The position numbers and the translations under genes were made by a program. The notes under the pieces are model-generated. The model saw only the letters and a program-made list of their open reading frames with translations. It was not told the origin of the DNA and did not search any database. Shown in pieces: positions 5,974 to 45,385 of a DNA stretch of 45,385 nucleotides (positions are counted from its first letter, which is position 1; each line of letters begins with the position of its first letter). Source of the stretch: Spirochaetota bacterium (GTDB lineage Bacteria > Spirochaetota > Leptospiria > Turneriellales > Turneriellaceae); the NCBI GenBank assembly GCA_017302045.1, contig JAFLED010000002.1, positions 1 through 45,385 on the forward strand, written 5' to 3'.

Positions 5974-6696
5974 ATGCTCCGGTCAGCCATAGTGATTGGC
6001 GCGACTTCTGGCATTGGGAGCGAACTCGCCGATATTCTAGTTTCCCAGGGCTACCGTGTGGGAATCACCGGGCGCCGGGTAAACCTGCTTCGTGACAAAG
6101 TGAACACCATGCCTGATCGATATGTTTCTCAGTATATGGATGTGTCTGACCCAAAAGATTGTGCCTGGGCTTTGGAGAGACTATGGAGTCGTTTTTCCCA
6201 CGTCGATGTGGTCATTTTCTGCGCAGGGACTGGCGATATTAATCTGGATTTGGATTTCTCCAAGGAGCAACAAACTATCCGTACAAACATTAGCGGGTTT
6301 ACGTTTGTGGCAGATTGGGTATTCCGCGCGTTTCAGAAACAAGGGATCGGACACCTTGTGGCAATTACCTCGGTCGCGGCTTTGCGCGGCAACCGGCAAG
6401 CGCCTGCATACAATGCTTCGAAGGCCTACCAGGCAAATTACATTGAAGGGCTTCAGCAAAAGGCAATGAATGAAAAGCTGAATATTCGCATAACCGATAT
6501 CAGGCCAGGCTTCGTAGATACGGCGATGGCAAAAGGTGAGGGAAAATTCTGGGTCATGCCAGTGAAAAAGGCGGCATTGCAGGTTTTTCAAGCAATAGAA
6601 AGCAAAAAACGTGTCGCATATGTTACGAGACGATGGTGGTTGATTGGCGTTCTGCTGAGAGCATTGCCCAAATCCATTTATCTGAGATTACCGTGA
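5974..6696 (+). CDS. SDR-family NAD(P)-dependent oxidoreductase
   Basis: The protein starts MLRSAIVIGATSGIG, giving the TGxxxGIG-type cofactor site in the form GATSGIG, then CAGTGD (NAG-like), an active-site Ser in ITSVAA, and YNASK with the catalytic Tyr and Lys. A basic, hydrophobic C-terminus (YVTRRWWLIGVLLRALP) is typical of a subgroup of classical SDRs and may touch the membrane. ATG 5974 is preferred on homology; ATG 5938 is possible. Length about 240 residues is normal. Substrate unknown. Confidence 0.85.
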   Translation: MLRSAIVIGATSGIGSELADILVSQGYRVGITGRRVNLLRDKVNTMPDRYVSQYMDVSDPKDCAWALERLWSRFSHVDVVIFCAGTGDINLDLDFSKEQQTIRTNISGFTFVADWVFRAFQKQGIGHLVAITSVAALRGNRQAPAYNASKAYQANYIEGLQQKAMNEKLNIRITDIRPGFVDTAMAKGEGKFWVMPVKKAALQVFQAIESKKRVAYVTRRWWLIGVLLRALPKSIYLRLP

Positions 6697-7013
6697 AAAA
6701 GAAAAACATGGTATAAACTATTTTAATGCGTTCATAGCTATGGCAGAAGACTGCTCGACGCAATCCGCGGAAACGCCTGAGCCTTTCCGCGGTGAAGAGA
6801 CCGCAGCAACTATTCAGTCTGATGCGAAGGGTAAAATTGCGCTATGGGCCATCGATTCGAAAGAATACCAGAAGCTGTCTCGATAAGTCGCTCAAACAAG
6901 TTAAGGCGATGAGCGCTTCCTGTGTCAACGCGCAAGCCCCCTAGGGCCCGAGCACTGCGTCGACGCTAAGTTTTTCACAGACAAAGACGGTACGCCGTAT
7001 TAGCTGAGGCTCA
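6697..7013. other. Intergenic stretch holding decayed genes
   Basis: Between the SDR gene and the response regulator there is no intact gene of normal size. It contains a 48-codon frame (6740-6886) and an msrA-like scrap ending at 7003; both are described in the pseudogene entry. Confidence 0.5.
6740..7003 (+). pseudogene. Decayed remnants, the last part resembling MsrA
   Basis: ATG 6740 opens 48 codons (MAEDCSTQSAETPEPF...) to TAA 6886. In the same frame, near 6940-7003, the sequence reads LGPEHCVDAKFFTDKDGTPY before TAG. This matches the [12 protein letters not shown] block of the MsrA encoded at 1722 at 10 of 16 positions, and the DNA is also similar (GGGCCCGAGCAC shared). The rest of MsrA is absent. 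I read this as a scrap of a second msrA, with an unidentified fragment before it. Confidence 0.4.
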
Positions 7014-7650: not shown

Positions 7651-8817
7651 TCACGAAAACCTTAAAGCAACGGTGGTACCTTTGCCTTCGCTGGTGAAGA
7701 TACGCAGGCGTCCGTTCAACCGGCGCGTACGCTCGGCGAGGTTCGGTAAACCCATACCCTGGGCTTTTGTTGTCTTATTAAAACCCCGGCCATCGTCGGC
7801 GATAATCATCGTTTTGCGGTTGCCTCTTGTTTTCATGCGGATGACCATCTTCTTTGCCTGAGCGTGCCGCATGGTATTGGCGAGCGCTTCGAAAAAAAAG
7901 CGCTGTAGGTGAAATGCCTGATGTATGGAAAGGACAGTATGCTCGATAGCGCATTTGAGGTCGAGTTTCGCGACGCGCGCCACTTCGTGGGCGCGTTCTA
8001 CGAGTTCGTCGGTAACGCGCTCTGGCAGGTCGGGACTTATGCTATTCAGCATAATGAGTTCACGTAACCGTTCGAGCATTCTGCGCAGGCGGGGTCGAAT
8101 GTCGCCGGGTACACCCGGGTTTTCCACCGGGGTTGTGGCTAAGGCCAACAGCGCCAATTCGGAGCCTATAACATCGTGCAGCTCTGCGTTGATACGATTC
8201 TTTTCGTCGCGTAGTATCGGTTCGAGCTCGGCGCGTGCATGCATACTTTCTACCTCGCGGTGCGCTTTGCGAAACTGGATGGTAGCATTTGAGAAGTATA
8301 ACCACCATAAGGCCGAAATGCCTGAGACAGTCAGTAAAAGGCCAGTAATATTTACCTCACTGCTACGCCAACCTAGCCACAGACTGCAATGCCAAGCAAT
8401 GAATGGTGTTACAAAAATAGCTATGCCTGAGAAGACGCTGGGGCCGCATTCGAAAGTTTCCATGATGCACAAGACAGTGAAGAAAATCCACATGAACCCC
8501 GCGTCGGGCGATGCGGCGAGAGCGAATGCCGCCATGAGCAAGCGATCGATAAAAAGTTCCCAAAGTACGAATTTTGAAACATACAGTCCTTTGAAAAGTA
8601 TCTGCGGCAGCACACTTAATGAAAAATGCACGAGGCCAATCATCGCGACCTTACTGCCGGTAATACCAACCGACCGCTCCACGACGGGGATTGAGAATAG
8701 AAGTACAAAAAAAACAAATGTTAAAAAATACATTAATAGAATCTGCCAAGTATAAGTGACAGCGTGAATTTTCTTATCGTGCTTCGGAATCCACGGAATT
8801 TTCATCAACCAAGACAT
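7651..8817 (-). CDS. Membrane histidine kinase (HisKA_3 type), partner of the response regulator
   Basis: The N-terminal half has about six hydrophobic segments (roughly residues 20-180 from ATG 8817) with no large periplasmic domain, so the signal may be in the membrane. It is followed by a short coiled coil and the HisKA_3 box INAELHDVIGSELALLAL with the phospho-His. The ATPase domain carries an N-box (EALANTMRHA), DDGRGF and GMGLPNLAERTRRL. ATG 8817 is my choice; the frame extends to a TTG at 8853 and another ATG lies at 8805, with no clear ribosome site for any. It is divergent from the lipoprotein gene at 8945. Confidence 0.92.
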   Translation of the reverse strand: MSWLMKIPWIPKHDKKIHAVTYTWQILLMYFLTFVFFVLLFSIPVVERSVGITGSKVAMIGLVHFSLSVLPQILFKGLYVSKFVLWELFIDRLLMAAFALAASPDAGFMWIFFTVLCIMETFECGPSVFSGIAIFVTPFIAWHCSLWLGWRSSEVNITGLLLTVSGISALWWLYFSNATIQFRKAHREVESMHARAELEPILRDEKNRINAELHDVIGSELALLALATTPVENPGVPGDIRPRLRRMLERLRELIMLNSISPDLPERVTDELVERAHEVARVAKLDLKCAIEHTVLSIHQAFHLQRFFFEALANTMRHAQAKKMVIRMKTRGNRKTMIIADDGRGFNKTTKAQGMGLPNLAERTRRLNGRLRIFTSEGKGTTVALRFS

Positions 8818-8889
8818 GAGGAGTCCGGTTCTTACTCCGCCGCATAGCGTCAAGATCAGCCATCATGCGAAGTACGTCTATTCGGCGTA

Positions 8890-8917
8890 TTGACTTTGTC
8901 GTAAAATCTGCTATATT
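8890..8917 (+). promoter_or_regulatory. Sigma70-like promoter for the lipoprotein gene
   Basis: TTGACT (8890-8895) and TATATT (8912-8917) are separated by 16 bases and lie 27 bases before ATG 8945, which also has GGAGG at 8936-8940. This is the best consensus-like promoter in the window. Confidence 0.6.
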
Positions 8918-8944
8918 CAACAAAAATTTAATCTCGGAGGGTCT

Positions 8945-9913
8945 ATGCGTTATACAATTATTTTTACCGTACTCGGCTTGTTGCTGAACTGTGCCGGTAA
9001 ACCGGCAATCAAGGTGAATCACAGCGGCAATGAAGCGGCGCGGCAATTAGCGAAGCGGCACTTCTCTGTTCTCGAACCCAAGGCGCTGGCCGAATACCCC
9101 AAGGTCGTGGTACCCAATTACCAGATTGGCCTGCAAACTACCTATTTCATGATGAATAAAGGCAACGTGCTTGGTCGCCTTGCCAAAACCACCGGCACGA
9201 TGGAGATGACTGTCTCCACAGACCCGGCGCCACTCGCCGCGACGCTGAAAGAGGTTAGTGCTCTATCGCGTGCGCGTTTTAAGAAAAAATTAACGGCCTT
9301 TGGTTTTGAAGTACTCGACGAACAAGAGCTGAAAAACAGCAGCGAAGACGTTAAAAAATGGTATGCGAAAAAGCTTGAGCCTTCGACGACCCTGGACCTG
9401 GGTAGTAACCAGGCTGGCGTACTGTACGGTGCCGAGGGCGCCTCTACCTCAGGTTGTAATTTTACCCGCGATATCAAAGCGGGTTGCCAGATACCGACTT
9501 TCACTATTGCCTTAGGTGCCTTTGTCGACAGCGATGGCCCGGGTGTGATTAAAGCGACACACGAAAATGTGCAGCTTTTCTTTAAGCCCGAAATACAGAT
9601 TTCAAATGGCACGATTTTTAACGGTGAGTACCGCTCGGGCATGGTAACGAGCAAGAGTCCCCTGTCGATGGGTGAGCTTACCGGCGAGGTACAGAAGACT
9701 CTCGACACCTCTGCCGACGCGAGTGCGCGCGCACAGCGCAAGCTCGATTGGGCAAATGCCATGGGCAAAACAGACCGCATCTTTGCGTTTTCTCATGGTA
9801 ATAAACAGTTCGAGCTCAACCCCGACCCCGCGCAGTTGCGTGCAGCACTGTTAGATACTCTCGATATCGCAGAAAACCTGACGCTCGAAATCTACGCGGA
9901 TGAGCTGAAATAA
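8945..9913 (+). CDS. Lipoprotein of unknown function
   Basis: The N-terminus MRYTIIFTVLGLLLNCAGK is a lipoprotein signal peptide with the lipid-modified Cys at residue 16. The mature protein is about 307 residues. Two cysteines near the middle (SGCNF and AGCQI) could form a disulfide, and the C-terminal 100 residues are helical and acidic. I recognise no family. A strong ribosome site and promoter precede it. The outer-membrane barrel gene starts 9 bases after its stop, so the two may act together at the outer membrane. Confidence 0.8.
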   Translation: MRYTIIFTVLGLLLNCAGKPAIKVNHSGNEAARQLAKRHFSVLEPKALAEYPKVVVPNYQIGLQTTYFMMNKGNVLGRLAKTTGTMEMTVSTDPAPLAATLKEVSALSRARFKKKLTAFGFEVLDEQELKNSSEDVKKWYAKKLEPSTTLDLGSNQAGVLYGAEGASTSGCNFTRDIKAGCQIPTFTIALGAFVDSDGPGVIKATHENVQLFFKPEIQISNGTIFNGEYRSGMVTSKSPLSMGELTGEVQKTLDTSADASARAQRKLDWANAMGKTDRIFAFSHGNKQFELNPDPAQLRAALLDTLDIAENLTLEIYADELK

Positions 9914-9922
9914 ACTGGCAGA

Positions 9923-11053
9923 ATGCGCATCGGCCTTGGCAAACGTATCGCAGGGGTGGCGCTCGCCACCCTTGTTTTCGCTCCCGCAACTTTCGCGTTG
10001 GGATCGCAAAACCGGTTTCTGGACGGGAAATATTTCGATTTTTATCTCGGCGTGAATTATACGTTTTGGAATATGAATTATTCGCTTTCGGATAGCGTCG
10101 CCAATGCCGTCGGAGATTCCTCGGCGCGGCGCTACGACACCAAAGTAGATCCTTATATTTTGAAAGTCATCGACGTAAAGTTTAAGAATCTCTGGGGATT
10201 CGAACTCGGATTAAATTATCTCAGCCAGAGCATCTTCGAATCTCTTTCATTCACTCCACCGCAAGATGTCACAACGAAAGAAGAACGGGTTGCACGCCAG
10301 ATCGAGCTCTATGTCAACAGACATATCACAGATAATTTTAAAATCATCGCCGACGCAAAGTTACGAAAATTCCAGGGTACGGTGACGGTTCTCAATATCG
10401 ATAGCTCGGCTGGCTCGAACGTCATCAATTATTACGGCGACGGTGGCCTGACGCGGCAGTTGCGCAGCGGCGATCAAATCGCCTGGAGCACGGGTGCCGA
10501 AGAACTTGCCTTGTTGGGCTACTTTACCGATGGCCATGAAAAAAGCTGGATTAATTTTTATTTCGGCTACCGTAAGTTCACCCATCGAGCGCCGGCCGAA
10601 ATCAGTTTTGATTCTGCCCAGAACTCCAGCGGGCCCAGTGTTTTTTTTGACGCCTTGATGTTAACCGATATCCATATCCATACCGCCGAAGCGGGTCTTG
10701 AAATTAACGCATTTTCCGAAGCGGGTAACGGCGTCAGTTTTAATATTCCCGTTAATCTCGGCTCTTATCATTACAGCAACGAATACTTTTCTTCACCTGG
10801 CGCCTTCATCACCATGATACCGTTCGATATCAGCGCTATCTATGGCGGTTCGAACTGGAAATTCGTTCTGGGATTCCATTATACCTATATGTTTTCTGTC
10901 GCTCAGAATACGGATATTACCATGGATAAACGCCTGACATACCAGGTGAATGGCGTGAATCGCAGCATACCAGAAGGCGCGGCGGTTCGCATTTTCTCCT
11001 TACGCAGTGAAACCTTCTGGGGGCCGTACTTTTCTTTTTCGATGAGCTTCTGA
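9923..11053 (+). CDS. Outer-membrane beta-barrel protein
   Basis: A signal peptide (about residues 1-25, ending FAPATFALG) is followed by about 350 residues of alternating hydrophobic and polar strands rich in Tyr, Phe and Gly (YFDFYLGVNYTFWNMNY, NFYFGYRKFTH, FVLGFHYTYMF). The chain ends with a phenylalanine (FSFSMSF), the usual signal for outer-membrane assembly. No porin family is recognised. It lies in an operon with the lipoprotein at 8945 and converges with the next gene. Confidence 0.8.
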   Translation: MRIGLGKRIAGVALATLVFAPATFALGSQNRFLDGKYFDFYLGVNYTFWNMNYSLSDSVANAVGDSSARRYDTKVDPYILKVIDVKFKNLWGFELGLNYLSQSIFESLSFTPPQDVTTKEERVARQIELYVNRHITDNFKIIADAKLRKFQGTVTVLNIDSSAGSNVINYYGDGGLTRQLRSGDQIAWSTGAEELALLGYFTDGHEKSWINFYFGYRKFTHRAPAEISFDSAQNSSGPSVFFDALMLTDIHIHTAEAGLEINAFSEAGNGVSFNIPVNLGSYHYSNEYFSSPGAFITMIPFDISAIYGGSNWKFVLGFHYTYMFSVAQNTDITMDKRLTYQVNGVNRSIPEGAAVRIFSLRSETFWGPYFSFSMSF

Positions 11054-11082
11054 TAATACGAAGCTCGGAGTATGTTGGGCGT

Positions 11083-11712
11083 TTAGCCGAATGGCCGGCC
11101 CGAAATCAACGCTTTCTCCGATTTCTTCTTACGCAGAGTATTCTCAAAGTTCAGTATTTTATCTTTGAACCGAATCACCAGTTTTTGTCTCAGCGTTTCC
11201 GGAAAAACTTCGGTTTCGTATTCCATATCGTAAGAGAACGTTGCCATCATTGTATCGTTATATTTATAGTGAACCAGGTCATCCGGATAGAGATCGTAAA
11301 GAGCCCCCGGGAAATCTTCTCTCTTGATATCCGGTGAACTTTTGCCGTCCCAGTATGAAATCCTGAGTTTGTTCTTCTTCACCGGCACGATTTTTTCGCC
11401 GTCATAAAGCGTGATTTCGATTTTTTCGAGTTTCGCCCAGTTGGCCTGGGTTTCGCTGAAATTCAGATACGAAGAAATAATGCCCGGGTTGGTGAGGTCG
11501 TGATAGGTGGGGTTGAGCTTCGTTTCGAGGTTTTTTCCGTTCGCACGCACGGTGTACGTCAGTTCTTTGTCCGGAATATAACGATAACTGGTGCTGCCGC
11601 ATGCGCCGACGGCACATAGAATTATGAATGAGCTGAACCAGGCAAGTGCCGCATGGCGAGCCGTCTGATTTCTTGCAAGCCACGGGATATATATTGCATC
11701 AGCCTGGATCAT
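11083..11712 (-). CDS. Lipoprotein of unknown function
   Basis: A hydrophobic segment (WFSSFIILCAVGACGS) ends in a lipobox with Cys at about residue 38. The region before it is long (about 24 residues), so the true start may be further in, but ATG 11712 is the only good ATG. The mature part is beta-rich and charged, ending in a Lys-rich tail. No family recognised. It follows the WG-repeat gene by only 8 bases on the same strand. Confidence 0.7.
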   Translation of the reverse strand: MIQADAIYIPWLARNQTARHAALAWFSSFIILCAVGACGSTSYRYIPDKELTYTVRANGKNLETKLNPTYHDLTNPGIISSYLNFSETQANWAKLEKIEITLYDGEKIVPVKKNKLRISYWDGKSSPDIKREDFPGALYDLYPDDLVHYKYNDTMMATFSYDMEYETEVFPETLRQKLVIRFKDKILNFENTLRKKKSEKALISGRPFG

Positions 11713-35340: not shown

Positions 35341-36198
35341 GTGAAAAAAATATTCTGCGGCATATTCATTCTCGAAGGCATCTTTGCGACGCAGGTGAAT
35401 ATCCCCGCAGGGCGCTTTCGTATGGGGCGCAACGGCGCGGCGCGGCACGATCAGGGCCCCGCTTTCTGGGTGAATCTCCCGGCTTTCAAAATCGATGCAA
35501 CGCTCGTCACCTATGCGGATTTCCACCGTTTTGTCGCGGAGACGAAATATGTCACGAGCGCCGAGAAGATCGGTCATGTGCTGGCGGCATTTGAAGGCAT
35601 GGGAGAATATGAGTGGAAGCGGCTCAAGGGCGCGACCTGGCGCATGCCTTACGGTGCGGATAAATCCGGCACATGGCCCATGCAAGATGACTTTCCCGTC
35701 ACCGCGATCAGCTGGAACGACGCCGACGCCTATTGCCGTCACTATGGCAAACGGCTGCCGACCGAGGCCGAATGGGAATACGCGATGCGCGCGGGCTCGC
35801 AGGGCACGCGCTTTCCCTGGGGTGATTCGACGCGCGACAAAAACGGAAAATACCTGTTGAATTACTGGCAGGGACGCGACCACAAGCACAACGAAAACGA
35901 AGACGGGTATATGTATCTTTCGCCCGTGAAGGCATTTCCACCCAATGCCTGGGGCATTTACGACCCGGTCGGCAATGTCTGGCAATACACGGCCGACTGG
36001 TACGGGGCTTTCGATGAAAAAGAGAAAATAAATCCCAAGGGGCCGGCCACGGGCACGTTAAAGGTCGCGCGCGGTGGCTCGTGGTGGTGCTCTTTTCACG
36101 CCTGCAACGCCTTTGGCCTGTTCTACCGCGGTAAGTCGTTACCCGACGCGCCGTTTTCGAATAATGGCTTTCGTTGCGTTTCGTCTCCGGAAAAATAG
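35341..36198 (+). CDS. Secreted FGE-sulfatase (SUMF1)-family protein with conserved cysteine pair
   Basis: Start GTG 35341 gives a short hydrophobic leader (VKKIFCGIFILEGIFA). The FGE domain follows (VNIPAGRFRMGRNGAARHDQGPAFWVNL, PVTAISWNDADAYCRHYGKRLPTEAEWEYAMRAGSQGTRFPWGD, WGIYDPVGNVWQYTADWYG, RGGSWWCSFHAC, NNGFRCVSS). RGGSWWC-x4-C has the spacing of the active-site cysteine pair of true formylglycine-generating enzymes; most related non-FGE proteins lack both cysteines. The frame extends upstream to GTG 35302, overlapping the SH3 gene. Three bases separate it from the NagX-like gene. Confidence 0.85.
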   Translation: MKKIFCGIFILEGIFATQVNIPAGRFRMGRNGAARHDQGPAFWVNLPAFKIDATLVTYADFHRFVAETKYVTSAEKIGHVLAAFEGMGEYEWKRLKGATWRMPYGADKSGTWPMQDDFPVTAISWNDADAYCRHYGKRLPTEAEWEYAMRAGSQGTRFPWGDSTRDKNGKYLLNYWQGRDHKHNENEDGYMYLSPVKAFPPNAWGIYDPVGNVWQYTADWYGAFDEKEKINPKGPATGTLKVARGGSWWCSFHACNAFGLFYRGKSLPDAPFSNNGFRCVSSPEK

Positions 36199-36201
36199 TC
36201 A

Positions 36202-37380
36202 GTGCAGGATATAAAGCGTAACGCAGCTCTCGATCTCTTGCGCGGGCTGACCATCGCGCTCATGATCATTGTAAATAACCCCGGTGACTGGAAGCAGATG
36301 TTCCAGGTGCTGCGGCACGCCGAGTGGGATGGCTTTCTGGGGGCCGATATCGTATTCCCGTTGTTTCTTTTTGTCGCAGGCTTTGCCGCTGCCATGAAGG
36401 TCGACCGGCTCACGGGCATTCAGGGCACCGGGCCGCATTGCGCGAGTGCGCTGACTCTCGACGCACCCGAAGAGCCTCCCTACTATTTGCCGCTGATTCG
36501 CCGCGCCTCCATTCTTTTCGCTATCGGACTTTTTTTGAATGCCTGGCCATTCGGCCTCTTACCCGGCACGGAATTTCATCCTGAAAAACTGCGCGTCTTT
36601 GGCGTGCTGCAACGTATTGCGCTCTGTGTGCTTATCGGTGGATTCATACTGCGGAAATGTATTTCGCCGCGCGCGACGATCTTTGCCCTTATTGTTATGG
36701 CCGCCATCTACGAGATCGGCATGCGGCTGCCCCTCGTCACAACCGCTGCGGGAACCTTCGGCCGCAGTTTTGCGTTAACGGATAATTTTGCCCGGCTCGT
36801 CGATACATCCATCTTGCCGGACGCAATGCTCTACAAGGTGCAAAAGATACCCTTCGATCCCGAGGGGCTGTTCACGACGCTCACGGCGGTGGCGACGTTT
36901 CTGATCGGTGCGCTCTGTTACAGGTTGCCAAGGGGAGGGGGGGCAGAAGCGGGGAGGGGTTTTGGCAGAGTTTACCTCGCCACAAGCCTCGCAGTAGCTG
37001 GGGTTCTCATGGCATTTATAGAGCCAGTGAATAAGAACCTGTGGACACTCCCCTATGCGTTGCTGACGGGCGCCGCGGGGGTAATCCTACTGAGTTTTTT
37101 GGAGATGCTGCGCTTCACGAATACCGGCTGGGGGGCATGGTTTTTGCGGCCTATTAGCTATATGGGTATGAACCCGCTGGTGATCTATGTGCTCAGCGGA
37201 ATCATCGGAAAGGCGCTTGCGGTGACCAAAATGGCCTCTGGGTTGAGTTTGAAAGCTATTTTGTTTAACTCGTTGGCCATTCTGCCGGCTTCAGGCCCGA
37301 TGCTTTCCTTGCTATATTCCCTGCTGTTGCTATTGGTCCTGGCCTGCATGACGCGGCTGATCCCCCGCTTATCGGCTTGA
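36202..37380 (+). CDS. NagX-like transmembrane acyltransferase (DUF5009/HGSNAT-like)
   Basis: The 392-residue protein begins RNAALDLLRGLTIALMIIVNNPGDW and has ADIVFPLFLFVAGFAAAM, the conserved first parts of this family, then about ten membrane helices, including MGMNPLVIYVLSGI. Homologues include the lysosomal enzyme that acetylates heparan glucosamine and bacterial NagX linked with GlcNAc use. Substrate here is unknown. A Gly/Arg-rich stretch near residue 245 (RLPRGGGAEAGRGFGR) is encoded by very G-rich DNA. Start is GTG, 3 bases after the FGE gene. Confidence 0.85.
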   Translation: MQDIKRNAALDLLRGLTIALMIIVNNPGDWKQMFQVLRHAEWDGFLGADIVFPLFLFVAGFAAAMKVDRLTGIQGTGPHCASALTLDAPEEPPYYLPLIRRASILFAIGLFLNAWPFGLLPGTEFHPEKLRVFGVLQRIALCVLIGGFILRKCISPRATIFALIVMAAIYEIGMRLPLVTTAAGTFGRSFALTDNFARLVDTSILPDAMLYKVQKIPFDPEGLFTTLTAVATFLIGALCYRLPRGGGAEAGRGFGRVYLATSLAVAGVLMAFIEPVNKNLWTLPYALLTGAAGVILLSFLEMLRFTNTGWGAWFLRPISYMGMNPLVIYVLSGIIGKALAVTKMASGLSLKAILFNSLAILPASGPMLSLLYSLLLLLVLACMTRLIPRLSA

Positions 37381-37410
37381 CTTGCCTGAGCAAATGGCCC
37401 AGTTCGGGGT

Positions 37411-37878
37411 ATGAAAGTCCGTCACCTGTTTATCGTGGGATTCGTGGTGCTGAGCTCGGGCATCGGGGCCAAGGCTAAATTTATCAACAAAGATACGCTC
37501 GAGGTTACGGCGCCGGGCAAGGCGCGCAAATCGGGTTCGGCGATGCGCGACGAATCGAGCTGCAAAGAAGCGGCGCGCAGCGAGGCGCTCCGCATCGCCA
37601 TCGAAACACTCGTCGATATGAACTGGCCGAATGTCAGGGGCAAGGTTTCGCGCGAAAAGTACGGTGAAAAAGTCACGCAGACAACCGAAGGCAGTATCCG
37701 GGGCGCGCACGTGGTTCGCGCGAGCGTCGACACCAGTGTTGATCCCGTTGTCTGTACGGTAACAGTGAGAATTCAGCGCATGGACCCGGCTTCGACGCAT
37801 AAGCGTGTCATGCAGGCGCTCGACGCCGAAGCCGCGGGAAACAAAGAAATTCTCGCAACGCCCACACCGAAGAAGTAA
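37411..37878 (+). CDS. Secreted protein of unknown function
   Basis: ATG 37411 opens a signal peptide (MKVRHLFIVGFVVLSSGIGAKA). The mature part, about 130 residues, contains two cysteines (SSCKEAARSEAL and PVVCTVTVRI) and the alternation AALRIAIETLVDMNWP...KVSREKYGEKVTQTTEGSI...VVRASVDTS, reminiscent of LPP20/FlgT-type exported domains. That resemblance is weak. Its 3' end overlaps the earliest possible start of the ABC-F gene. Confidence 0.7.
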   Translation: MKVRHLFIVGFVVLSSGIGAKAKFINKDTLEVTAPGKARKSGSAMRDESSCKEAARSEALRIAIETLVDMNWPNVRGKVSREKYGEKVTQTTEGSIRGAHVVRASVDTSVDPVVCTVTVRIQRMDPASTHKRVMQALDAEAAGNKEILATPTPKK

Positions 37879-37924
37879 CACCGAACGCCTTGACGCTCGG
37901 TTTCGGGCGCCGTATGCGCTGACC

Positions 37925-39793
37925 CTGAACTACCTCTCCGCCGAAAAACTCAGCAAAAGCTTCGGCATCAAGCCGCTCTTCCACGAGATCTCGTTTGGCC
38001 TCAACGCGGGCGACAAAAAAGCCCTCATCGCGAAAAACGGCGCCGGCAAGTCGACGCTGATGCAGGTGCTGGTGGGCAAAGAGCCTGCCGATGCCGGGCG
38101 CGTCATTCTCAAAAAAGGCATCTCCGTCGCGTACCTCGATCAATCGGACACGCTCGACGAGAACATGACGATTCTAGAAACCATTTTTGATACGTCGCGC
38201 CCCATGATGCGCGTGCTCGCTAAATACGAAGAGGCGATGATTTCGGGCAAGGGCGTCGACCAGGCCATTGCCGATGTCGAGGCCGCGAATGCGTGGGACT
38301 ATGAGCGGCGCATCAAAAGCATTCTGACCCGGCTGGGGATTACCCAACTTGGCGCGCGCGTGGGCTCACTCTCAGGCGGCGAGCGCAAGCGTGTCGCGCT
38401 CGCGCATACGCTGATCGAAGAGGCAGACGTGCTGATTCTCGACGAACCGACGAACCACCTCGATCTCGACATGATCGAATGGCTTGAGAGTTATCTGCAG
38501 CGTGATAACATCACACTCTTTCTTGTCACCCATGACCGCTACTTTCTCGAGACGATCTGCGACGAAATTCTTGAACTCGACGACGGTAAGCTCTATACCT
38601 ACCATGGCAACTACTCGAACTTTCTCGAAAAAAAAGCCGAACGCGAGGAGAGTGAGCGCAAGTCGATCGACGCCGCGCAGAATAAGATGCGCCGCGAGCT
38701 CGAATGGATACGCAAACAACCCAAGGCGCGCACGACGAAGGCAAAATACCGCGTGAATGCGTTCGAAGATCTGAAGGTTGCGGCGACGGCGAAGAAGAGA
38801 GAAGAACTGAAGACCCTCGATACCGAGATGAGCCGCATCGGCGGCAAAATTCTCGAGATCGAGAATATCAGTAAGAGTTTTGGCGAGCGCCGTCTCGTCG
38901 CCAATTTCACCTACAAGTTCCTGAAAGGCGATCGCATTGGGGTGATCGGCAAGAACGGCGCGGGGAAATCCACCTTTCTGAATCTGATCACCGGCCTCGA
39001 AAAACCCGATGCCGGTACCGTTGAGAAGGGCGACAATACGGTCTTCGGCTATTACCGCCAAGCCGGGTTGGATTTCCGCAAGGATGCGACGATTCTCGAC
39101 GTGGTGCGCGATGTCGCCGAGGCGATTCCGCTGGCAAAGGGCAAATCGCTCACGGCCGCACAGCTCTTGGAGCAGTTTCTGTTTCCGCCCGGCATGCACC
39201 GCCAGCAGGCCGCGCGGCTTTCGGGTGGAGAAAAGCGGCGGCTCTATCTCTTGACGATTCTCATGAAGAATCCGAATTTTCTCATTCTCGACGAGCCCAC
39301 AAACGATCTCGACATCGCGACGATCGACGTGCTCGAAGATTATCTGCAAAATTTCGCCGGTTGCCTCGTCGTGGTGTCGCATGACCGCTACTTCATGGAT
39401 AAACTCACGCAGCATCTTTTCGTGCTCGATAAAGACTTCGGCAATGTCCAGGAAGGGATCATCACCGACTTCAACGGCAATTATTCGGACTACCTCGCTG
39501 CTAAAGAAGCGCAGGAAAAGGCTACCGTTGCGGAGCAAAAGAAAGAACAAAAACCGCGCGAGCGCCCAAACCGCGACAAGCCCAAGGGCCCGACGATGTC
39601 ACAAGTTAAAGAGCGCGAGCGTCTTGAGAAAGAGATACCCGTGCTCGAGGCAAAGCTCGCAGAACTGACGGCAGAGCTTGCGCAACCGGGGCTTGCGTTT
39701 GAACGCGCAGCGGCGGTGGGTCGCGAAATCGATACCTTAAATCGGGAGATTGAGGCGAAGACGAACCGTTTTCTCGAACTTGTCGATCCTTAA
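37925..39793 (+). CDS. uup: ABC-F ATPase, Uup type; start codon unclear
   Basis: The protein has two ATP-binding cassettes: AKNGAGKST, LSGGERKRVALAH, LILDEPTNHLD, then GKNGAGKST, LSGGEKRRLYLL, LILDEPTNDLD. The TNDLD ending and a C-terminal coiled coil (RERLEKEIPVLEAKLAELTAEL...EIDTLNREIEAKTN) point to Uup, a ribosome-linked ABC-F protein. Homologues begin MNYLSAENLSKSFG; here that position is a CTG codon (37925) reading LNYLSAEKLSKSFG. The only ATG/GTG/TTG in frame upstream is GTG 37805 inside the preceding gene. I use CTG 37925 as the working start. Confidence 0.88.
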   Translation: MNYLSAEKLSKSFGIKPLFHEISFGLNAGDKKALIAKNGAGKSTLMQVLVGKEPADAGRVILKKGISVAYLDQSDTLDENMTILETIFDTSRPMMRVLAKYEEAMISGKGVDQAIADVEAANAWDYERRIKSILTRLGITQLGARVGSLSGGERKRVALAHTLIEEADVLILDEPTNHLDLDMIEWLESYLQRDNITLFLVTHDRYFLETICDEILELDDGKLYTYHGNYSNFLEKKAEREESERKSIDAAQNKMRRELEWIRKQPKARTTKAKYRVNAFEDLKVAATAKKREELKTLDTEMSRIGGKILEIENISKSFGERRLVANFTYKFLKGDRIGVIGKNGAGKSTFLNLITGLEKPDAGTVEKGDNTVFGYYRQAGLDFRKDATILDVVRDVAEAIPLAKGKSLTAAQLLEQFLFPPGMHRQQAARLSGGEKRRLYLLTILMKNPNFLILDEPTNDLDIATIDVLEDYLQNFAGCLVVVSHDRYFMDKLTQHLFVLDKDFGNVQEGIITDFNGNYSDYLAAKEAQEKATVAEQKKEQKPRERPNRDKPKGPTMSQVKERERLEKEIPVLEAKLAELTAELAQPGLAFERAAAVGREIDTLNREIEAKTNRFLELVDP

Positions 39794-39869
39794 TCGTTGA
39801 CGGCCCCGGGCAGGCATCGCTTCGTCTCGCATGTGTGGCCCGACCGCCTGCGCACTTCAGAAAGACCTG

Positions 39870-40268
39870 ATGCAAATACGCGAGCTGGCCGGCAGTCTTT
39901 TGTCGCGCGATGCCTATGACCGCTGGAGCTATGGCCCGCCTGAAGAGAAAGAAGAAAATCTCGCCGCCATGGCCCGTGAAGACCGGGAAATCCGTGCCCA
40001 GCGCGAGCAACTTTCGCAGCGTGTGCAGCAATTGCGCGCAAGCGAACCCGAGGCAGTCGTCGAATGGGCTGCGGCGCATATCGCGCTGCTTGAAGATTTC
40101 ATCGCAGAGAAGAGTGCCGATAAAGAAAAAAATGGTACCGAAATTTATGTTGCCGAGGGCGAGCTCGCCGAGTGGCGCAAGCTGAAAAATGGCGAGGTTT
40201 CGTTCGTCGAGCAGAATGTGTTCTACGTGCACTACAACGAAAAACTCTACCGTTCGTATTTTGGTTGA
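39870..40268 (+). CDS. Small coiled-coil protein of unknown function
   Basis: ATG 39870 (MQIRELAGSLLSRD) follows AAAGA; ATG 39831 is an alternative. The product, about 132 residues, is mostly charged helix (EEKEENLAAMAREDREIRAQREQLSQRVQQL) and ends with an aromatic-rich stretch (FYVHYNEKLYRSYFG). It has no signal peptide. No family recognised. It follows the uup gene by 76 bases. Confidence 0.65.
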   Translation: MQIRELAGSLLSRDAYDRWSYGPPEEKEENLAAMAREDREIRAQREQLSQRVQQLRASEPEAVVEWAAAHIALLEDFIAEKSADKEKNGTEIYVAEGELAEWRKLKNGEVSFVEQNVFYVHYNEKLYRSYFG

Positions 40269-40271
40269 TGG

Positions 40272-40397
40272 ATGGCGAAGCTCCTACCCTACTTTATCAT
40301 TACCTTTATCAACATGGCGGGCTTCGCCCTTATCTTTCCCGTCATGCCCGAGATGCTCTATTATTTCCGTAAGGCAGCACCCGAGTCGGGCCGCTGA
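40272..40397 (+). pseudogene. Truncated major-facilitator transporter, N-terminus only
   Basis: The frame (41 codons) reads MAKLLPYFIITFINMAGFALIFPVMPEMLYYF, which looks like the first membrane helix of a drug-efflux-type MFS transporter, and then stops. No second helix follows, and the next gene starts 77 bases later. This is a large deletion of an MFS gene or a scrap of one; a working 41-residue protein is less likely. Confidence 0.55.
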
Positions 40398-40474
40398 CTC
40401 GATGCCGCCGTGGCGCTCGTTCACCGCATGCGCGAATAGAATTTACATAACCGGGGGCAGAGCTGCCGTTGGCT

Positions 40475-41362
40475 ATGTTCAAATTTGCCGCCGTGTTTTT
40501 TACCCTGGCTTCTGTTCTGCTGGCCGATTCGCCGGAGGCGCAATGCGGGCCGCATGCGTTGCAGCCTAAACCGGATTTCCTCGTGGCCGTGACCTCGGCC
40601 TACCGCCAGGTTGAAGGCGGTTATGAAATTACCGTGAAGAACAACGAACGCTTCGGGGTTTATCTCGATATGCGGATGACCAAGCTCGTGAATCTCGAAT
40701 CCGAAGCGGGAAAATCTTTCATTCTGCCCGTGGCGGCAGGCGCCGAAATTGTCGCCACAAAACTGCGCATTGTTAATCCTATAGCCGCGTCGAACTTCAA
40801 TTACACCTTCGATAACTATCTGGGCGATCCGAAAAATACCCGCCACGATCCAAAGACCGAATACGAGTTGCCCTATGCTGCCGGATTTTCCTCTCCTGTT
40901 TTGCAAGGGTACAAAGGCAAATTCTCACACAACAACGAACTCAACCTGCATGCGCTGGACTTCGGCATGCCGCGCGGTACACCGATTCTCGCGGCGCGGG
41001 CGGGTGTTGTCATCGCCTCGCGGAGCGATGTCACGACGGGCGGTCACGATCCCGGGCTTTTGGGCACGGTCGATGGTGCGGGTAATTTTGTTATGGTGCT
41101 GCATGAGGACGGTACCGTGGGCAACTATTTTCACATGCGCTGCGGCAGTATCACGCTCAAGAAAGGGGATACCGTCCGCGCGGGTGATACTCTCGGGGAA
41201 GCCGGCTCAACCGGCTATTCGCACCCGGATTATCCGCACCTGCTCTTCGTGGTGCGCGTGCCCGATCAGAAGAATCGCTACGGGCGTAAGACGGTGCCGA
41301 CGCTGTTTCGTACGCGTGAGGGAGTAAAGCTTTTGAAAGAGAAAGAGGTTTATGAGAAATGA
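40475..41362 (+). CDS. Secreted M23-family peptidase-like protein with altered zinc site
   Basis: From ATG 40475 the 295-residue product has a signal peptide (MFKFAAVFFTLASVLLA) and an N-terminal domain of about 130 residues. The M23 core follows: LHALDFGMPRGTPILAARAGVVIA, NYFHMRCGS and DYPHLLFVVRVP. In active enzymes the last block is HxH; here it reads HLL, so the final zinc His is Leu. It may be a non-catalytic regulator, as EnvC and NlpD are, or use a different ligand set. It probably acts on peptidoglycan in the periplasm. Confidence 0.85.
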   Translation: MFKFAAVFFTLASVLLADSPEAQCGPHALQPKPDFLVAVTSAYRQVEGGYEITVKNNERFGVYLDMRMTKLVNLESEAGKSFILPVAAGAEIVATKLRIVNPIAASNFNYTFDNYLGDPKNTRHDPKTEYELPYAAGFSSPVLQGYKGKFSHNNELNLHALDFGMPRGTPILAARAGVVIASRSDVTTGGHDPGLLGTVDGAGNFVMVLHEDGTVGNYFHMRCGSITLKKGDTVRAGDTLGEAGSTGYSHPDYPHLLFVVRVPDQKNRYGRKTVPTLFRTREGVKLLKEKEVYEK

Positions 41363-41419
41363 ATTTCCGAAACAGTGACGGGTAGTAGGCGTTCTCTGAC
41401 GTAGTTGCGCCTTTGTACT

Positions 41420-41441
41420 GCGCCCGCGTCCATGCGGGCGC
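41420..41441. terminator. GC-rich hairpin between converging genes
   Basis: GCGCCCGC and GCGGGCGC form a perfect 8-bp stem with a 6-base loop, between the stops of the M23 gene and the anti-sigma gene. The T-run after it is weak on both strands, so it may be a bidirectional or Rho-assisted stop. Confidence 0.5.
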
Positions 41442-41460
41442 TTAAACGATATTGCATATT

Positions 41461-42111
41461 TCATTCACCTGCTTCGAGGTTTAGTGTGATAGTAAAAATA
41501 GCTTCCTTTTTCTTCAGAAACCGGATATCAAACTCACCCTTCCGGGGAAATTGCGTTGAAAGCGTCGATTGGCGCGAAATATCATCGATAGTTTCGCAGA
41601 CTTCACCATCAAAAGTCACAATCGCTTGCAAGGCCTCCGAGGGGCTGACATGCAATGCCAGGCCAATTTTATCCTTTTGAGTTAAAGGATGAATCGTCAA
41701 CGTTACCTCGCGTTCCCGAATGACGCGGGTAATACTGATCGGGCCTTCTTGATTACGGCTCAAAATATTTTCCCCGCTATCGCGAAACGAGTACGATGCC
41801 TTGAGACCCTGATAGCTCAGGGAGTCCTGGTCGCCGCTGAAGACGATAATTTTGTCTTTCAGAAAGCGAACAATAACGGAAATGTGGCTTTGTTTTGTAT
41901 CGCGGATCCTCTGCAAAACGGCATCCCGCATCTTTGCAGGGATTTTCTCGCCGCCTTTCTGCAAAAAAATTGCCTCGCGCATATTCATATAAGATTGAAA
42001 ACAATCGCCGCATAATTTCAGATGGCGCTCTGCCTCATCGCGTACGGTCCCTGTCGCCGCTCCCGAGATGTAAGCCGATAGCTCCTTTTCGTTCAAATGT
42101 TTATCAGACAT
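41461..42111 (-). CDS. Soluble zinc-binding anti-sigma factor
   Basis: The N-terminus carries the ZAS-type zinc motif with His30, Cys34 and Cys37 (ERHLKLCGDC), in the helical arrangement of anti-sigma domains. The remaining 150 residues are beta-rich, with no hydrophobic segment long enough for a membrane helix, so this is a soluble anti-sigma factor. It starts 27 bases after the sigma gene and should bind that sigma factor. A further sensing domain is possible in the C-terminal part, but I do not recognise it. Confidence 0.85.
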   Translation of the reverse strand: MSDKHLNEKELSAYISGAATGTVRDEAERHLKLCGDCFQSYMNMREAIFLQKGGEKIPAKMRDAVLQRIRDTKQSHISVIVRFLKDKIIVFSGDQDSLSYQGLKASYSFRDSGENILSRNQEGPISITRVIREREVTLTIHPLTQKDKIGLALHVSPSEALQAIVTFDGEVCETIDDISRQSTLSTQFPRKGEFDIRFLKKKEAIFTITLNLEAGE

Positions 42112-42138
42112 AATGTTTCACGATATTCCCTGTTTCGT

Positions 42139-42711
42139 TCAATTCACTATAAATTTTTTCAGGTTTTCTTCCAATTTTGCATACGCACGACGAATGCGCG
42201 TCGAAGCGGTGTCGATGGGAACTCCCAAAATACCGGCAATCTCCTTATGTTTATATCCTTGCATCAGCAGATATACCGGCTCGCGATACTTCATATCCAA
42301 CTTAGCGATGGCACTCATCACTTCGCGCGAAACTTCGGTTTGCAAATAGCGGGTTTCGGGATCATGCTCCGAACTCAAGAGACCCATGAAATCTTCGATG
42401 CTTGTAATACGCGCTTTTTCGACGCCTTGAGAGCGGCGTTGATTGGCGGCGGTATTAAAGGCAATTTGCCGGACATAGGCAAGCAGTTCGTAAAAACTCT
42501 CGCCGCGGAATTTACGCAACAGCCCGTAATTGTTGTCGATGAGTTTGCAGTAAATCGTCTGAACGATATCGTCGTGATCGTAGTTTACTGTCTTACGAAC
42601 CCTTCCAGCAATCAACGGGTGAAAAAGTTCAAAAAAGCGATTCCATGCTGTCTCGGAACCGGCACAGCATTCGGCGATAAAAGGACGGATGTCGGAGTTA
42701 CCGGAGAGCAT
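42139..42711 (-). CDS. ECF-family RNA polymerase sigma factor
   Basis: The 190-residue protein has sigma region 2 (about 20-90: WNRFFELFHPLIAGRVRKTV...DDIVQTIYCKLIDN, FYELLAYVRQIAFNTAANQRR) and region 4 (about 130-185: AIAKLDMKYREPVYLLMQGYKHKEIAGILGVPIDTASTRIRRAYAKL). There is no region 1.1 or 3, as for ECF factors. It is followed by its anti-sigma gene and preceded by the CHAT operon genes on the same strand. A 12-bp palindrome lies just upstream. Confidence 0.92.
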   Translation of the reverse strand: MLSGNSDIRPFIAECCAGSETAWNRFFELFHPLIAGRVRKTVNYDHDDIVQTIYCKLIDNNYGLLRKFRGESFYELLAYVRQIAFNTAANQRRSQGVEKARITSIEDFMGLLSSEHDPETRYLQTEVSREVMSAIAKLDMKYREPVYLLMQGYKHKEIAGILGVPIDTASTRIRRAYAKLEENLKKFIVN

Positions 42712-42736
42712 ACAATCGTCGGGAATAACGGCCCGG

Positions 42737-42748
42737 GAAGCATGCTTC
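42737..42748. promoter_or_regulatory. 12-bp palindrome upstream of the sigma factor gene
   Basis: GAAGCATGCTTC is a perfect palindrome 26 bases before the sigma factor start, within the 79-base gap after the upstream gene. It may be a protein site or part of a promoter for the sigma/anti-sigma pair. Confidence 0.3.
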
Positions 42749-42790
42749 GAACTCCCGTAATACGTCCACTAAAAAGCGATAAGTGCCCGG

Positions 42791-43585
42791 TCAGTTCTTT
42801 CGCAATGATTTCATAATCTCTATCGCCTTCTGAGCGCGAATAAAACCCTCTTTCAGACCAGTCAACTTTTCAAGATTCTCAGATTTTGTGTGGCGATCGA
42901 GTTGAAACAAAACTTGTTCAAGACTGTTATACCCTCCCGCAACGAGTATCTTATCTGCACTGCGGTGTTTCAGCACGGCAAGTTCCGCAAGCGTGGCTTC
43001 GGCGGCGGCGCGCACGTCGCCGTCTTTACAGGCGTCGATATAAGGCTGAAGATTAGGGGATTTTTTGTTCTTGAAGCGTGCCGTCCTGAGTTCCGAGCGG
43101 ATTTGTATCGCAAGACTATCCGTAAAAAACCGATCTTCTTTTTGCTCCCGGCAAATTTGTAAATATTCGATCGCAATTGAATAAGCAGCGGCGTATTCGA
43201 CATACTCGTCTAAAGCCGAGTTCAGTTCGGCATTCTGGCAGGTTTTCCTGAATTTTTCATAGTCATCGCGCTGCTGTTTCTCGTATGACTTTAACTGCCC
43301 TTTCGTATCGGCAACGCCGCCTTTGAGCTGCCGGTTTGTCTGTTTCATGGTCTCTCGTAGCTTGACGATCTGAGCGTCACTGACACCTTCGGTCGCGCAG
43401 ACATCGACGATCGCAGAGAACGCTTTACAAGAATCTGCTCCCGCTCCCAAACCTTGAACAATGGTACAATTTTCTTCCGCCAGACGCACCAGCTCGGCAT
43501 CGCGGCATTTTTTATCTTCGGTCGCGGAAATTTCCGCCGATATAAATCCGACGAGGAGAAGAAAAATCGGATGGCACAATTTCAT
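42791..43585 (-). CDS. Secreted helical protein of the CHAT operon
   Basis: A signal peptide (MKLCHPIFLLLVGFISAEISA) is followed by about 240 residues that are almost all helical and charged, with five cysteines in the mature part (KKCRDAEL, ENCTIV, DSCKAF, DVCATE, KTCQNAEL) and another two later. The layout, helical pairs such as YSIAIEYLQICREQK and AEATLAELAVLKHRSADKI, suggests a TPR-like or coiled-coil scaffold. Its ATG overlaps the CHAT stop (ATGA), so its amount is tied to CHAT. It may meet the periplasmic tail of the CHAT protein. No family recognised. Confidence 0.75.
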   Translation of the reverse strand: MKLCHPIFLLLVGFISAEISATEDKKCRDAELVRLAEENCTIVQGLGAGADSCKAFSAIVDVCATEGVSDAQIVKLRETMKQTNRQLKGGVADTKGQLKSYEKQQRDDYEKFRKTCQNAELNSALDEYVEYAAAYSIAIEYLQICREQKEDRFFTDSLAIQIRSELRTARFKNKKSPNLQPYIDACKDGDVRAAAEATLAELAVLKHRSADKILVAGGYNSLEQVLFQLDRHTKSENLEKLTGLKEGFIRAQKAIEIMKSLRKN

Positions 43586-45039
43586 GGCAGCTCGTTTTTC
43601 AGCCGAATAATTTTCGAGGTCTCGGGGACATCGGAAGTCAGCACGTCGGACAAAATTCTTTCTTTATCTTCCTTCGTGTAGAAAGGATGCGGCATCGTGC
43701 GAAAATCGGCCACCAGGCTCGCCAGGGCCGGCGACTGTATTGTCGGCGTTTTCTCATGGTGACGGGAGGTAATGACACCGATCGGTTTCTCGGGAAGCCG
43801 TGCCGCCGGCGCCCGGGATTCTGCGGCTTTGGCGGTTCGTTTGTCGCGCCGCCGGTTTGACGGATTTTCCGGTTGAGACAATCTCGCTTTAGACGACATC
43901 TCTGCCGGTTTGGACATGCGATCTCCTGCGAAGAAGACAATACTCAGGGCTATCGCAAAAAATGCCGCCGCTGCAATCACGAATTTTCCGGCTTTCTGTC
44001 GTTTGCGGTTTTCCGCGCCGGCAAAAAACTGTATGCCCAGCCATGCCAATTCGGCGGCACCGAATTTTTCAAAGATCGCGCGCCTTAAAGACAGCGCGAT
44101 TGCGGAAAGTGATTTCTTGCGGTCTCGGTAAAATAATTTCAAGATCGGAGACCTGTTTTCGCGCCGAAGGAAATCCGCCCAAAACGCCTCTGCCGCAAAC
44201 AGGGCAGCCGCGTCGGATACCGGATAGCCATAGCCGATATAATTTTTCACCCCCGCCGACAAAAAAGCGGCCGCAAGCCCGGTTTGAGCATATTCGCCGG
44301 CAGAATTACAGCCGTTGATAAATGCCAGCTTCATATTATCGAGGTTCATGGCCGCGATGTCCTGTGGAAACAAAGCACCGTCCCGGAAACGCAGCGATTG
44401 TTCGCGGACATGCCCCGAATAGTGCAGATACTCGCAGTGTGCAAGTTCTTCGACAGCCTGTGTGGTAGCCGCGAGCTTTCCCAACACGCGCATATCCACC
44501 TTGCCGCTGCCGATGTGCTCCAGGGATTTTTTCTCTTCGTTAGTCAGGACGGCGATGTCGGAGGCGCCTTCGGGATTCGCCAATAGAAGAAAATTTCGCG
44601 CGCGGTTTGCGGTATTTGCCGTTTCGCTTCGTGCTGAAACCGTGCGCATCTGCCGCAGAATCGGTATGCCAAGGCCCGCGAAATTTTCCGTTGCCCGGTT
44701 CATCGGTAAAAGTTCGAACGGCAGACGCGCCCAATCCGCATCGACCGAAAAGACGAGTTGGAGCGCGTCGGCGCAGTCAAAGGAGGGTTGAAAAAGCAGC
44801 GTACGCAGCGTGTTACCGTAACGCCGTAGCCTCTCTGCCACCTCACGATCAAAGACATGGTCTTCGGGTCTGCTGTTCTTTTGCGCCAGTACGCGAGCGA
44901 CGAAATCAAGCCAGTCGTCGAGAAACGCCAGCAGCAATTTTTTAGGAATCAGTTTGTGATTTTCAACGGTGCCTGGGATTACCTCATCAACGATAACGTC
45001 GACGTTGTCGAGGGCGGCGTCGATGATTCGGATACGCAT
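43582..45039 (-). CDS. Membrane-anchored CHAT-domain protease
   Basis: The 485-residue protein has a CHAT (caspase HetF associated with TPRs) domain with the catalytic His210 (YLHYSGHV) and Cys244 (FINGCNSA) in the right order and context, plus the typical DADWARLPFELLP and GLAAAFLSAGVKNYIGYGYPVSD. There are no TPR repeats; residues 1-80 form a separate N-terminal region. A basic stretch precedes one membrane helix (353-372), and about 113 residues rich in Lys, Pro and Ser should lie outside. The protease domain would then be cytoplasmic, next to the sigma and anti-sigma factors. It is the second gene of the operon. Confidence 0.9.
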   Translation of the reverse strand: MRIRIIDAALDNVDVIVDEVIPGTVENHKLIPKKLLLAFLDDWLDFVARVLAQKNSRPEDHVFDREVAERLRRYGNTLRTLLFQPSFDCADALQLVFSVDADWARLPFELLPMNRATENFAGLGIPILRQMRTVSARSETANTANRARNFLLLANPEGASDIAVLTNEEKKSLEHIGSGKVDMRVLGKLAATTQAVEELAHCEYLHYSGHVREQSLRFRDGALFPQDIAAMNLDNMKLAFINGCNSAGEYAQTGLAAAFLSAGVKNYIGYGYPVSDAAALFAAEAFWADFLRRENRSPILKLFYRDRKKSLSAIALSLRRAIFEKFGAAELAWLGIQFFAGAENRKRQKAGKFVIAAAAFFAIALSIVFFAGDRMSKPAEMSSKARLSQPENPSNRRRDKRTAKAAESRAPAARLPEKPIGVITSRHHEKTPTIQSPALASLVADFRTMPHPFYTKEDKERILSDVLTSDVPETSKIIRLKNELP

Positions 45040-45101
45040 TCTTAAACAAGCGACTCAGCTTTTATACAGCCGGTTTTCCGCCTTATCCGTCCAGCGGACA
45101 T

Positions 45102-45278
45102 TCACCATTTCTCAATGCGTTTAAGGAGTTCTTCCGTTGAAATAGAACGACCGGCTTCCGAGGCGGCAAGACCTTCTACTACCTGATTTACAAAGTTAAC
45201 TTTTTCCATAATGTCTTCGGCCGAGACATCGTCGGGTAATTTCTTTATAACTTCGAGAGTTGCTTCTTTAAGCGACAT
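45102..45278 (-). CDS. Small antitoxin-like protein at the head of the CHAT operon
   Basis: AGGAG precedes ATG 45278. The 58-residue product (MSLKEATLEVIKKLPDDVSAEDIMEKV..., ending STEELLKRIEKW) matches the pattern of small helical antitoxins that pair with ParE/RelE toxins: KKLPDD, EDIM, EGL, EAGR, EELLKRI. No such toxin gene adjoins; the next gene, 62 bases away, is CHAT. The protein may be an orphan antitoxin, or an inhibitor or substrate of CHAT. Confidence 0.75.
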   Translation of the reverse strand: MSLKEATLEVIKKLPDDVSAEDIMEKVNFVNQVVEGLAASEAGRSISTEELLKRIEKW

Positions 45279-45300
45279 GGTAACTCCTGGTACCTGAAAT

Positions 45301-45347
45301 CTGCCCGAACCGCGCACCTTAATTTATGCACGATGGCGGGCAGTCAA
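45301..45347 (-). promoter_or_regulatory. Promoter and inverted repeat for the CHAT operon
   Basis: On the minus strand TTGACT (45347-45342) and an A+T-rich -10 (TAAATT or AAATTA, about 45326-45320) are 15-16 bases apart. CTGCCCG (45301-45307) and CGGGCAG (45337-45343) form a 7-bp inverted repeat that brackets the -10 region, a likely operator. Confidence 0.45.
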
Positions 45348-45385
45348 GACAGAAATACCTTTATCAATCTTTTCTGGCGCTCATT

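Follow-up and report, generated by a model that had tools for sequence, protein, structure and literature searches.

Contig JAFLED010000002.1 of a free-living Spirochaetota bacterium carries, at its end and on the minus strand, four adjacent genes encoding a CHAT protease with a predicted membrane helix, a secreted protein, an extracytoplasmic function (ECF) sigma factor and a predicted soluble anti-sigma factor. The same set of genes recurs in other spirochete genomes. We propose, giving the idea about an even chance of being right, that it constitutes a membrane-gated switch independent of clustered regularly interspaced short palindromic repeats (CRISPR), in which an outside cue would reach the CHAT protease through its secreted partner or its tail, the activated protease would cleave the anti-sigma factor, and the sigma factor would be released. 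The sequences themselves show the parts, the topology predicted for them, an intact catalytic dyad and a conserved gene linkage.

The four-gene module

The window, meaning the whole stretch of DNA analysed, is the complete contig of 45,385 bases (G000:C112 in our genome survey), with Turneriella sp. Bin_83R and a Spirochaetes metagenome-assembled genome as the closest relatives that bear a name. The original prediction described an operon of five open reading frames (ORFs) in one direction. All five are present on the minus strand, but the module has four genes, in the order CHAT, secreted protein, ECF sigma and anti-sigma, and lies beside a broken toxin-antitoxin locus to which the fifth, antitoxin-like gene is assigned below. 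The features of the module are the following.

43582..45039, minus strand: CHAT-domain protease, 485 amino acids (PF12770, E = 8.7e-16, 58.6 bits against a cut-off of 24)
44410..44412, minus strand: codon of predicted catalytic His210 (HYSGH; His in 10 of 11 subfamily members in the alignment)
44308..44310, minus strand: codon of predicted catalytic Cys244 (NGCNSAG; invariant in 11 of 11 subfamily members in the alignment)
43927..43983, minus strand: single CHAT membrane helix, residues 353-371 (hydropathy 2.71 over 19 residues)
43585..43926, minus strand: predicted periplasmic CHAT tail, residues 372-485 (conserved end HP-YYTKEDKERIL...SKIIRLKNELP)
42791..43585, minus strand: secreted all-helical partner, 264 amino acids (N-terminal hydrophobic signal; ATG overlapping the CHAT stop, ATGA)
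42139..42711, minus strand: ECF sigma factor, 190 amino acids (TIGR02937, E = 1.5e-19, 70.2 bits against a cut-off of 42.9; Sigma70_r4_2, E = 1.7e-10)
41461..42111, minus strand: soluble anti-sigma factor, 216 amino acids (zf-HC2, E = 4.7e-4, 20.6 bits against a cut-off of 22.2; no membrane helix)

The membrane CHAT protein with intact His and Cys had been correctly recognised: the Pfam score is above cut-off, His210 and Cys244 are both in place, and there is one hydrophobic helix. Peptidase activity is predicted from the domain and this dyad. The CHAT domain (residues 73-296) is followed by the helix, a Pro/Lys-rich linker and a conserved C-terminal tail, and the whole protein is 50-57% identical to its orthologues. 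Because basic residues of the cytosolic-side kind (RKRQKAGK) stand just before the helix, hydropathy predicts a cytosolic protease domain, with the last 114 residues on the outer side. The last 50 residues of the tail are conserved in the window, G014a, G015 and the distant G116, and the linker is not conserved. No tetratricopeptide repeat (TPR) model matched the window CHAT protein, and no Lon or SAVED match was found in the module proteins, whose protease is of the CHAT type. PADLOC models matched neither the CHAT protein nor the anti-sigma factor and gave only weak, unspecific matches to the other module proteins. Degenerate second CHAT copies share the locus of the intact gene in G014 (6087-6680 of the fetched locus) and G021 (3889-4131 of the fetched locus), which suggests repeated tandem duplication and decay.

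The start codon of the secreted protein overlaps the CHAT stop codon, as had been noted from the window, and the protein has the hydrophobic N-terminal signal and an all-helix model (mean pLDDT, the predicted local distance difference test score, of 74). Its homologues follow CHAT in 7 of the 8 loci with a visible downstream side. The assignment of the ECF sigma gene was borne out by the TIGR02937 score; of the two regional models, r4_2 passed its cut-off and r2 scored 15.4 bits where 24 are required. As expected of an ECF factor, the protein has no sigma regions besides 2 and 4, and its relatives in the PDB are SigE, SigH and SigW. The label of zinc-type anti-sigma factor stands in part: the N-terminal domain displays the full motif H5-x24-H30-x3-C34-x2-C37, but the zf-HC2 score falls just below cut-off. 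Binding and inhibition of the sigma factor are its predicted role. The zinc-type domain is joined to a C-terminal beta domain, modelled at a pLDDT of about 70-86; the N-terminal part was modelled poorly and the mean is 57. The structure predictions were built from two and three sequences, and with such shallow alignments no significant PDB fold match was obtained for the anti-sigma C-terminal domain or the secreted partner. A stand-alone copy of the beta domain is encoded beside the sigma-anti-sigma pair of G118 (6656-7009 of the fetched locus).

A hydrophobic membrane helix was found in none of the nine members of the anti-sigma family, and the anti-sigma factor is thus predicted to share the cytosol with the CHAT domain. 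The predicted topology, with catalytic domain and anti-sigma factor inside and the tail outside, fits the proposed switch.

Recurrence in Spirochaetota genomes

Profile searches were made over 393 Spirochaetota genomes, several of which are incomplete assemblies, and the recurrence counts rest on 12 membrane-CHAT loci and 9 anti-sigma loci. The 12 loci of the membrane-CHAT subfamily were detected at E < 1e-70, the next best match being 2e-41, and the 9 loci are those of the full-length anti-sigma family. Membrane-CHAT genes were present in 8 genomes, the anti-sigma family in 6 and both in 5 (hypergeometric P = 4e-9). A sigma gene adjoins the membrane-CHAT gene in 7 of the 10 loci with enough flanking sequence to be informative. 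Control CHAT genes, scanned with a narrow sigma profile, had a sigma gene within 5 kb in 1 of 31 loci, and the comparison of 7/10 membrane-CHAT loci with 1/30 other CHATs gave a Fisher P of 5e-5.

The gene order of the window was found again in G021 and in G014:C225, where the CHAT, secreted, sigma and anti-sigma proteins are 50, 50, 65 and 60% identical to those of the window. In G092:C16 and G116 the order is sigma, anti-sigma, CHAT and secreted protein. A paralogous operon, G014:C58, has CHAT followed by sigma and anti-sigma, and its match in G000 is split over two contig ends (C341/C329). In G001:C50 a sigma N-terminus (MSEQEFQKILAGCKQGDQEAWSLFMDEFHPLITGT) begins right after the CHAT stop, ahead of the contig end. 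With the same genes grouped in several families, the association is more than chance, and the suggestion that all of this reflects chance neighbours in one genome, to which only the position of the window operon at a contig end beside a broken toxin-antitoxin locus would lend anything, is hardly credible given gene sets shared across families and orders.

The CHAT protein of G014:C58 (G014b; 9326-11143 of the fetched locus) ends in a NADase_transloc F5/8-type-C domain (E = 3.8e-29) in place of the tail described above, and the secreted partner is absent beside it. It appears as if sensing had been shifted from a separate protein into the CHAT tail.

The regions upstream of the CHAT orthologues could not be aligned with one another, and a search for an ECF motif common to them gave none; sigma-70-like and terminator-like matches were at chance level only. 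A 12-mer, TTGAAAGAATTT, occurs once each in the fetched G021 and G092:C16 loci, just upstream of the first operon gene. It may represent a promoter element common to both loci, or have arisen by chance in AT-rich DNA.

A soluble CHAT-sigma lineage

Downstream of one control CHAT gene, that of G044, come a sigma-like gene and one for a zf-HC2 protein. This arrangement proved to belong to a second operon, in another spirochete order, in which a gene for CHAT fused to an N-terminal EVE/DCD-like segment precedes a sigma-like gene and the gene of a soluble zf-HC2 anti-sigma factor in every one of the six CHAT-bearing genomes. Linkage of CHAT and sigma is complete (6/6), as is that of the anti-sigma gene where the contig continues (5/5). 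The sigma-like proteins are 281-316 amino acids long and match TIGR02937 with E-values down to 2e-17. The EVE/DCD assignment is weak, with E-values of 0.0015-0.003 that do not pass the cut-off. The His/Cys dyad is kept in the five CHATs of this lineage that were aligned, and profile comparison between the two lineages gave E = 1e-8 for the anti-sigma families and 3e-15 for the CHATs. The operon adjoins genes which we take to be tsaB/tsaE homologues, and in G020 what is presumably a caspase-like protein is encoded a few genes away (8125-9171 of the fetched locus).

When the gene order was looked for outside the window, CHAT and sigma genes were thus found to be neighbours in most informative membrane loci and all soluble ones, with the exceptions treated below.

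Proposed mechanism

In the resting state the ECF sigma factor would be kept in the cytosol by the soluble anti-sigma factor. A change on the outer side of the inner membrane would be relayed, probably by the secreted partner, to the conserved periplasmic tail of CHAT; in the paralogue the fused F5/8-type-C domain would take over this relay. The signal in the tail would activate the cytosolic CHAT domain, which would then cut the anti-sigma factor, probably docking on the conserved C-terminal beta domain of that protein, and the freed sigma factor would transcribe its regulon. What we infer, beyond the parts and their linkage, is that the anti-sigma factor is the substrate and the partner the sensor, as well as which way the signal runs and which regulon is served. 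In type III-E CRISPR systems the inhibitor Csx30 is cleaved by the CHAT protease Csx29, for which the C-terminal domain of Csx30 is the docking site (PMC10028731). As that domain is both bound and cut by a CHAT protease, the beta domain may be regarded as the natural candidate for the substrate region here.

With somewhat less confidence than in the switch itself, we suggest that CHAT proteases form a general class of CRISPR-independent sigma-release switches in spirochetes. The class would have at least two architectures, one transmembrane with a periplasmic receptor tail and a secreted partner, the other soluble with an EVE/DCD-like sensor.

Several observations weigh against the proposed switch. 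G015, an assembly that is 99% complete, has an intact CHAT gene together with a secreted partner cut to 92 residues, and neither the sigma factor (a distant match of 2.9e-4 only) nor the anti-sigma factor has a close relative in it. Sigma-anti-sigma pairs without CHAT nearby occur in G092:C9 and G118. Five Leptospira interrogans plasmids carry such a pair as well, with an anti-sigma factor 25-29% identical, and no CHAT gene lies near it in the four plasmid regions fetched. The CHAT protein of G001b (G001:C50; 103-1338 of the fetched locus) has a Tyr at the position of His210 (HYAGY) and is possibly inactive, and the sigma gene still follows it. CHAT-sigma co-evolution in distance matrices was significant with orthologous pairs included, but with one member per clade the correlation was only 0.49, which is unconvincing. 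Finally, no PDB sequence or fold match linked the anti-sigma factor to Csx30, the model being weak.

The plasmid records themselves yielded no CHAT relative. These plasmids form one replicon cluster, and the pair is flanked in them by genes for secreted, lipoprotein and SH3-domain proteins. Besides its full gene set, G092 has a CHAT-secreted pair (C135) and the sigma-anti-sigma pair (C9) on separate contigs. In G017, where the sigma pair is absent too, the CHAT protein ends at residue 241, immediately ahead of the catalytic Cys. The expectation that CHAT and the sigma pair would always be found together is contradicted by G015, G092 and the L. interrogans plasmids, and obligatory coupling of the two is ruled out by G015, the plasmids and G092:C9. 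The pairs in G092:C9, G118 and L. interrogans imply that the sigma pair can work without CHAT, and from the exceptions as a whole pair and protease are separable modules that are often joined.

The main rival explanation makes CHAT an output and not an input: another signal would control the sigma factor, CHAT and the secreted partner would be products of its regulon acting as a membrane-associated proteolytic effector, and the linkage would reflect autoregulation. This would suit G092:C16 and G116, where the sigma pair comes first and the CHAT-secreted genes after it, as well as the plasmid pairs flanked by secreted or lipoprotein genes and the CHAT-secreted genes lacking a sigma pair in G015 and G092:C135. 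It fits poorly with the window, G014 and G021, which have CHAT first and the pair last, and with the soluble lineage, where CHAT is likewise first in all six. In both known CHAT or Lon protease-sigma systems the protease acts upstream of the sigma factor, and no common ECF promoter could be made out in the DNA preceding the operons. We regard this explanation as unlikely, roughly a one-in-four matter.

It is rather improbable that CHAT and the secreted protein make up a unit of their own that acts on another substrate, for instance in an envelope or defence response, with the sigma pair as an exchangeable neighbour. The constancy with which the secreted gene follows CHAT, and the persistence of both in G015 and G092:C135 without the sigma pair, speak for such a unit; against it, CHAT and sigma genes are linked far more often than in the background, their linkage has been kept in two paralogous operons of one genus, and it is found also in the soluble lineage, where the secreted partner is absent.

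Still less probable is that the anti-sigma factor senses redox state or zinc, in the manner of zinc-binding anti-sigma (ZAS) proteins, and releases the sigma factor alone, CHAT being incidental. The complete H-x24-H-x3-C-x2-C motif of the window, and HxxxCxxC in G014a and G116, would be expected of such a sensor. The zinc motif is, however, lost in 6 of the 9 family members, including the CHAT-linked G014b, G000b, G021 and G092:C16, while the C-terminal beta domain is kept even where the zinc ligands are gone.

Relation to known systems

The original prediction drew a parallel with type III-E CRISPR and stated that CRISPR parts are missing, and the searches agree with this: there is no array in 36000-45385, and among the ORFs read beside the module none was recognised as a cas gene, Cas7-11 not having been searched by model. 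Cas1 was found neither in the G000 (84% complete) nor in the G092 assembly, and elsewhere it is never beside the module.

As in Craspase (Csx29/Csx30/CASP-sigma), a CHAT protease is encoded with an ECF-like sigma factor and a soluble two-domain inhibitor. Unlike in Craspase, no TPR or Cas7-11/gRAMP partner was found (with the same limit on Cas7-11), CHAT is predicted to be membrane-anchored with an outside tail, and the inhibitor is of zf-HC2 type and not recognisably Csx30. Lacking TPR and a CRISPR locus, the module is not counted among type III-E CASP systems. The three-part logic of protease, soluble anti-sigma factor and ECF sigma factor is shared with CalpL/CalpT/CalpS of type III CRISPR, in which CalpL cuts the anti-sigma factor CalpT (PMC11417357); there, however, a Lon protease is combined with a SAVED cyclic-nucleotide sensor, whereas here a CHAT protease has a predicted membrane helix and periplasmic tail. 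The module is proposed to work like Craspase or CalpL/T/S while belonging to neither. In DegS/RseP-RseA-RpoE and other regulated intramembrane proteolysis an envelope signal leads, as proposed here, through proteolysis of an anti-sigma factor to release of an ECF sigma factor. In those systems it is the anti-sigma factor that crosses the membrane, and periplasmic or intramembrane proteases cut it, whereas here the protease is predicted to span the membrane and the anti-sigma factor to be cytosolic; since the latter is not in the membrane, the module falls outside that class. With ZAS proteins (RsrA/ChrR-type) the anti-sigma factor has in common an N-terminal domain with H...HxxxCxxC, and it differs in the extra conserved beta domain, the loss of zinc ligands in most of its family and the CHAT neighbour.

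In the open-access literature searched, CHAT occurs together with sigma or anti-sigma factors in the context of type III CRISPR, bar incidental mention of the terms; subscription papers and preprints were outside this scope. As far as that literature shows, only type III-E CRISPR loci are known to encode a CHAT protease-inhibitor-sigma cascade. Its occurrence apart from CRISPR, maintained within orders and in two architectures, would suggest that in Craspase an older signalling device was fitted with a CRISPR sensor. Type III-E Craspase would then be one CRISPR-linked form of a more widespread CHAT-sigma arrangement. The transmembrane form, if the proposal is correct, would be a new path from envelope signal to ECF sigma factor by way of a membrane-spanning protease, a transmembrane control distinct from both intramembrane proteolysis of anti-sigma factors and partner switching. 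The finding would also point to a substrate for many CHAT proteases that are otherwise orphans.

The neighbouring toxin-antitoxin remnant

Two features lie between the module and the contig end.

45102..45278, minus strand: orphan antitoxin gene outside the module (best relative the antitoxin gene G014:C225:8501-8674, with 79% identity)
45055..45108, minus strand: ParE toxin relic of 17 codons followed by a stop (frame MVNVRWTDKAENRLYKS; overlaps the antitoxin stop)

The antitoxin-like gene had been included in the operon and was rejected as a member of it, its homologue in G014 being part of an intact ParE pair and no antitoxin gene being present beside CHAT in any of the other CHAT loci examined. 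It belongs to a ParE-type toxin-antitoxin pair that is not conserved with the module, and is taken to be the remnant of a neighbouring toxin-antitoxin locus. The stop of the toxin relic lies 15 bases upstream of the CHAT start, and the relic matches the start of the intact G014 ParE (MVAVRWTDRAEL..., PF05016, E = 9.1e-15). In G014:C225 the antitoxin gene overlaps the intact ParE gene that follows it, and the pair is situated about 10 kb upstream of CHAT (502-974 of the fetched locus).

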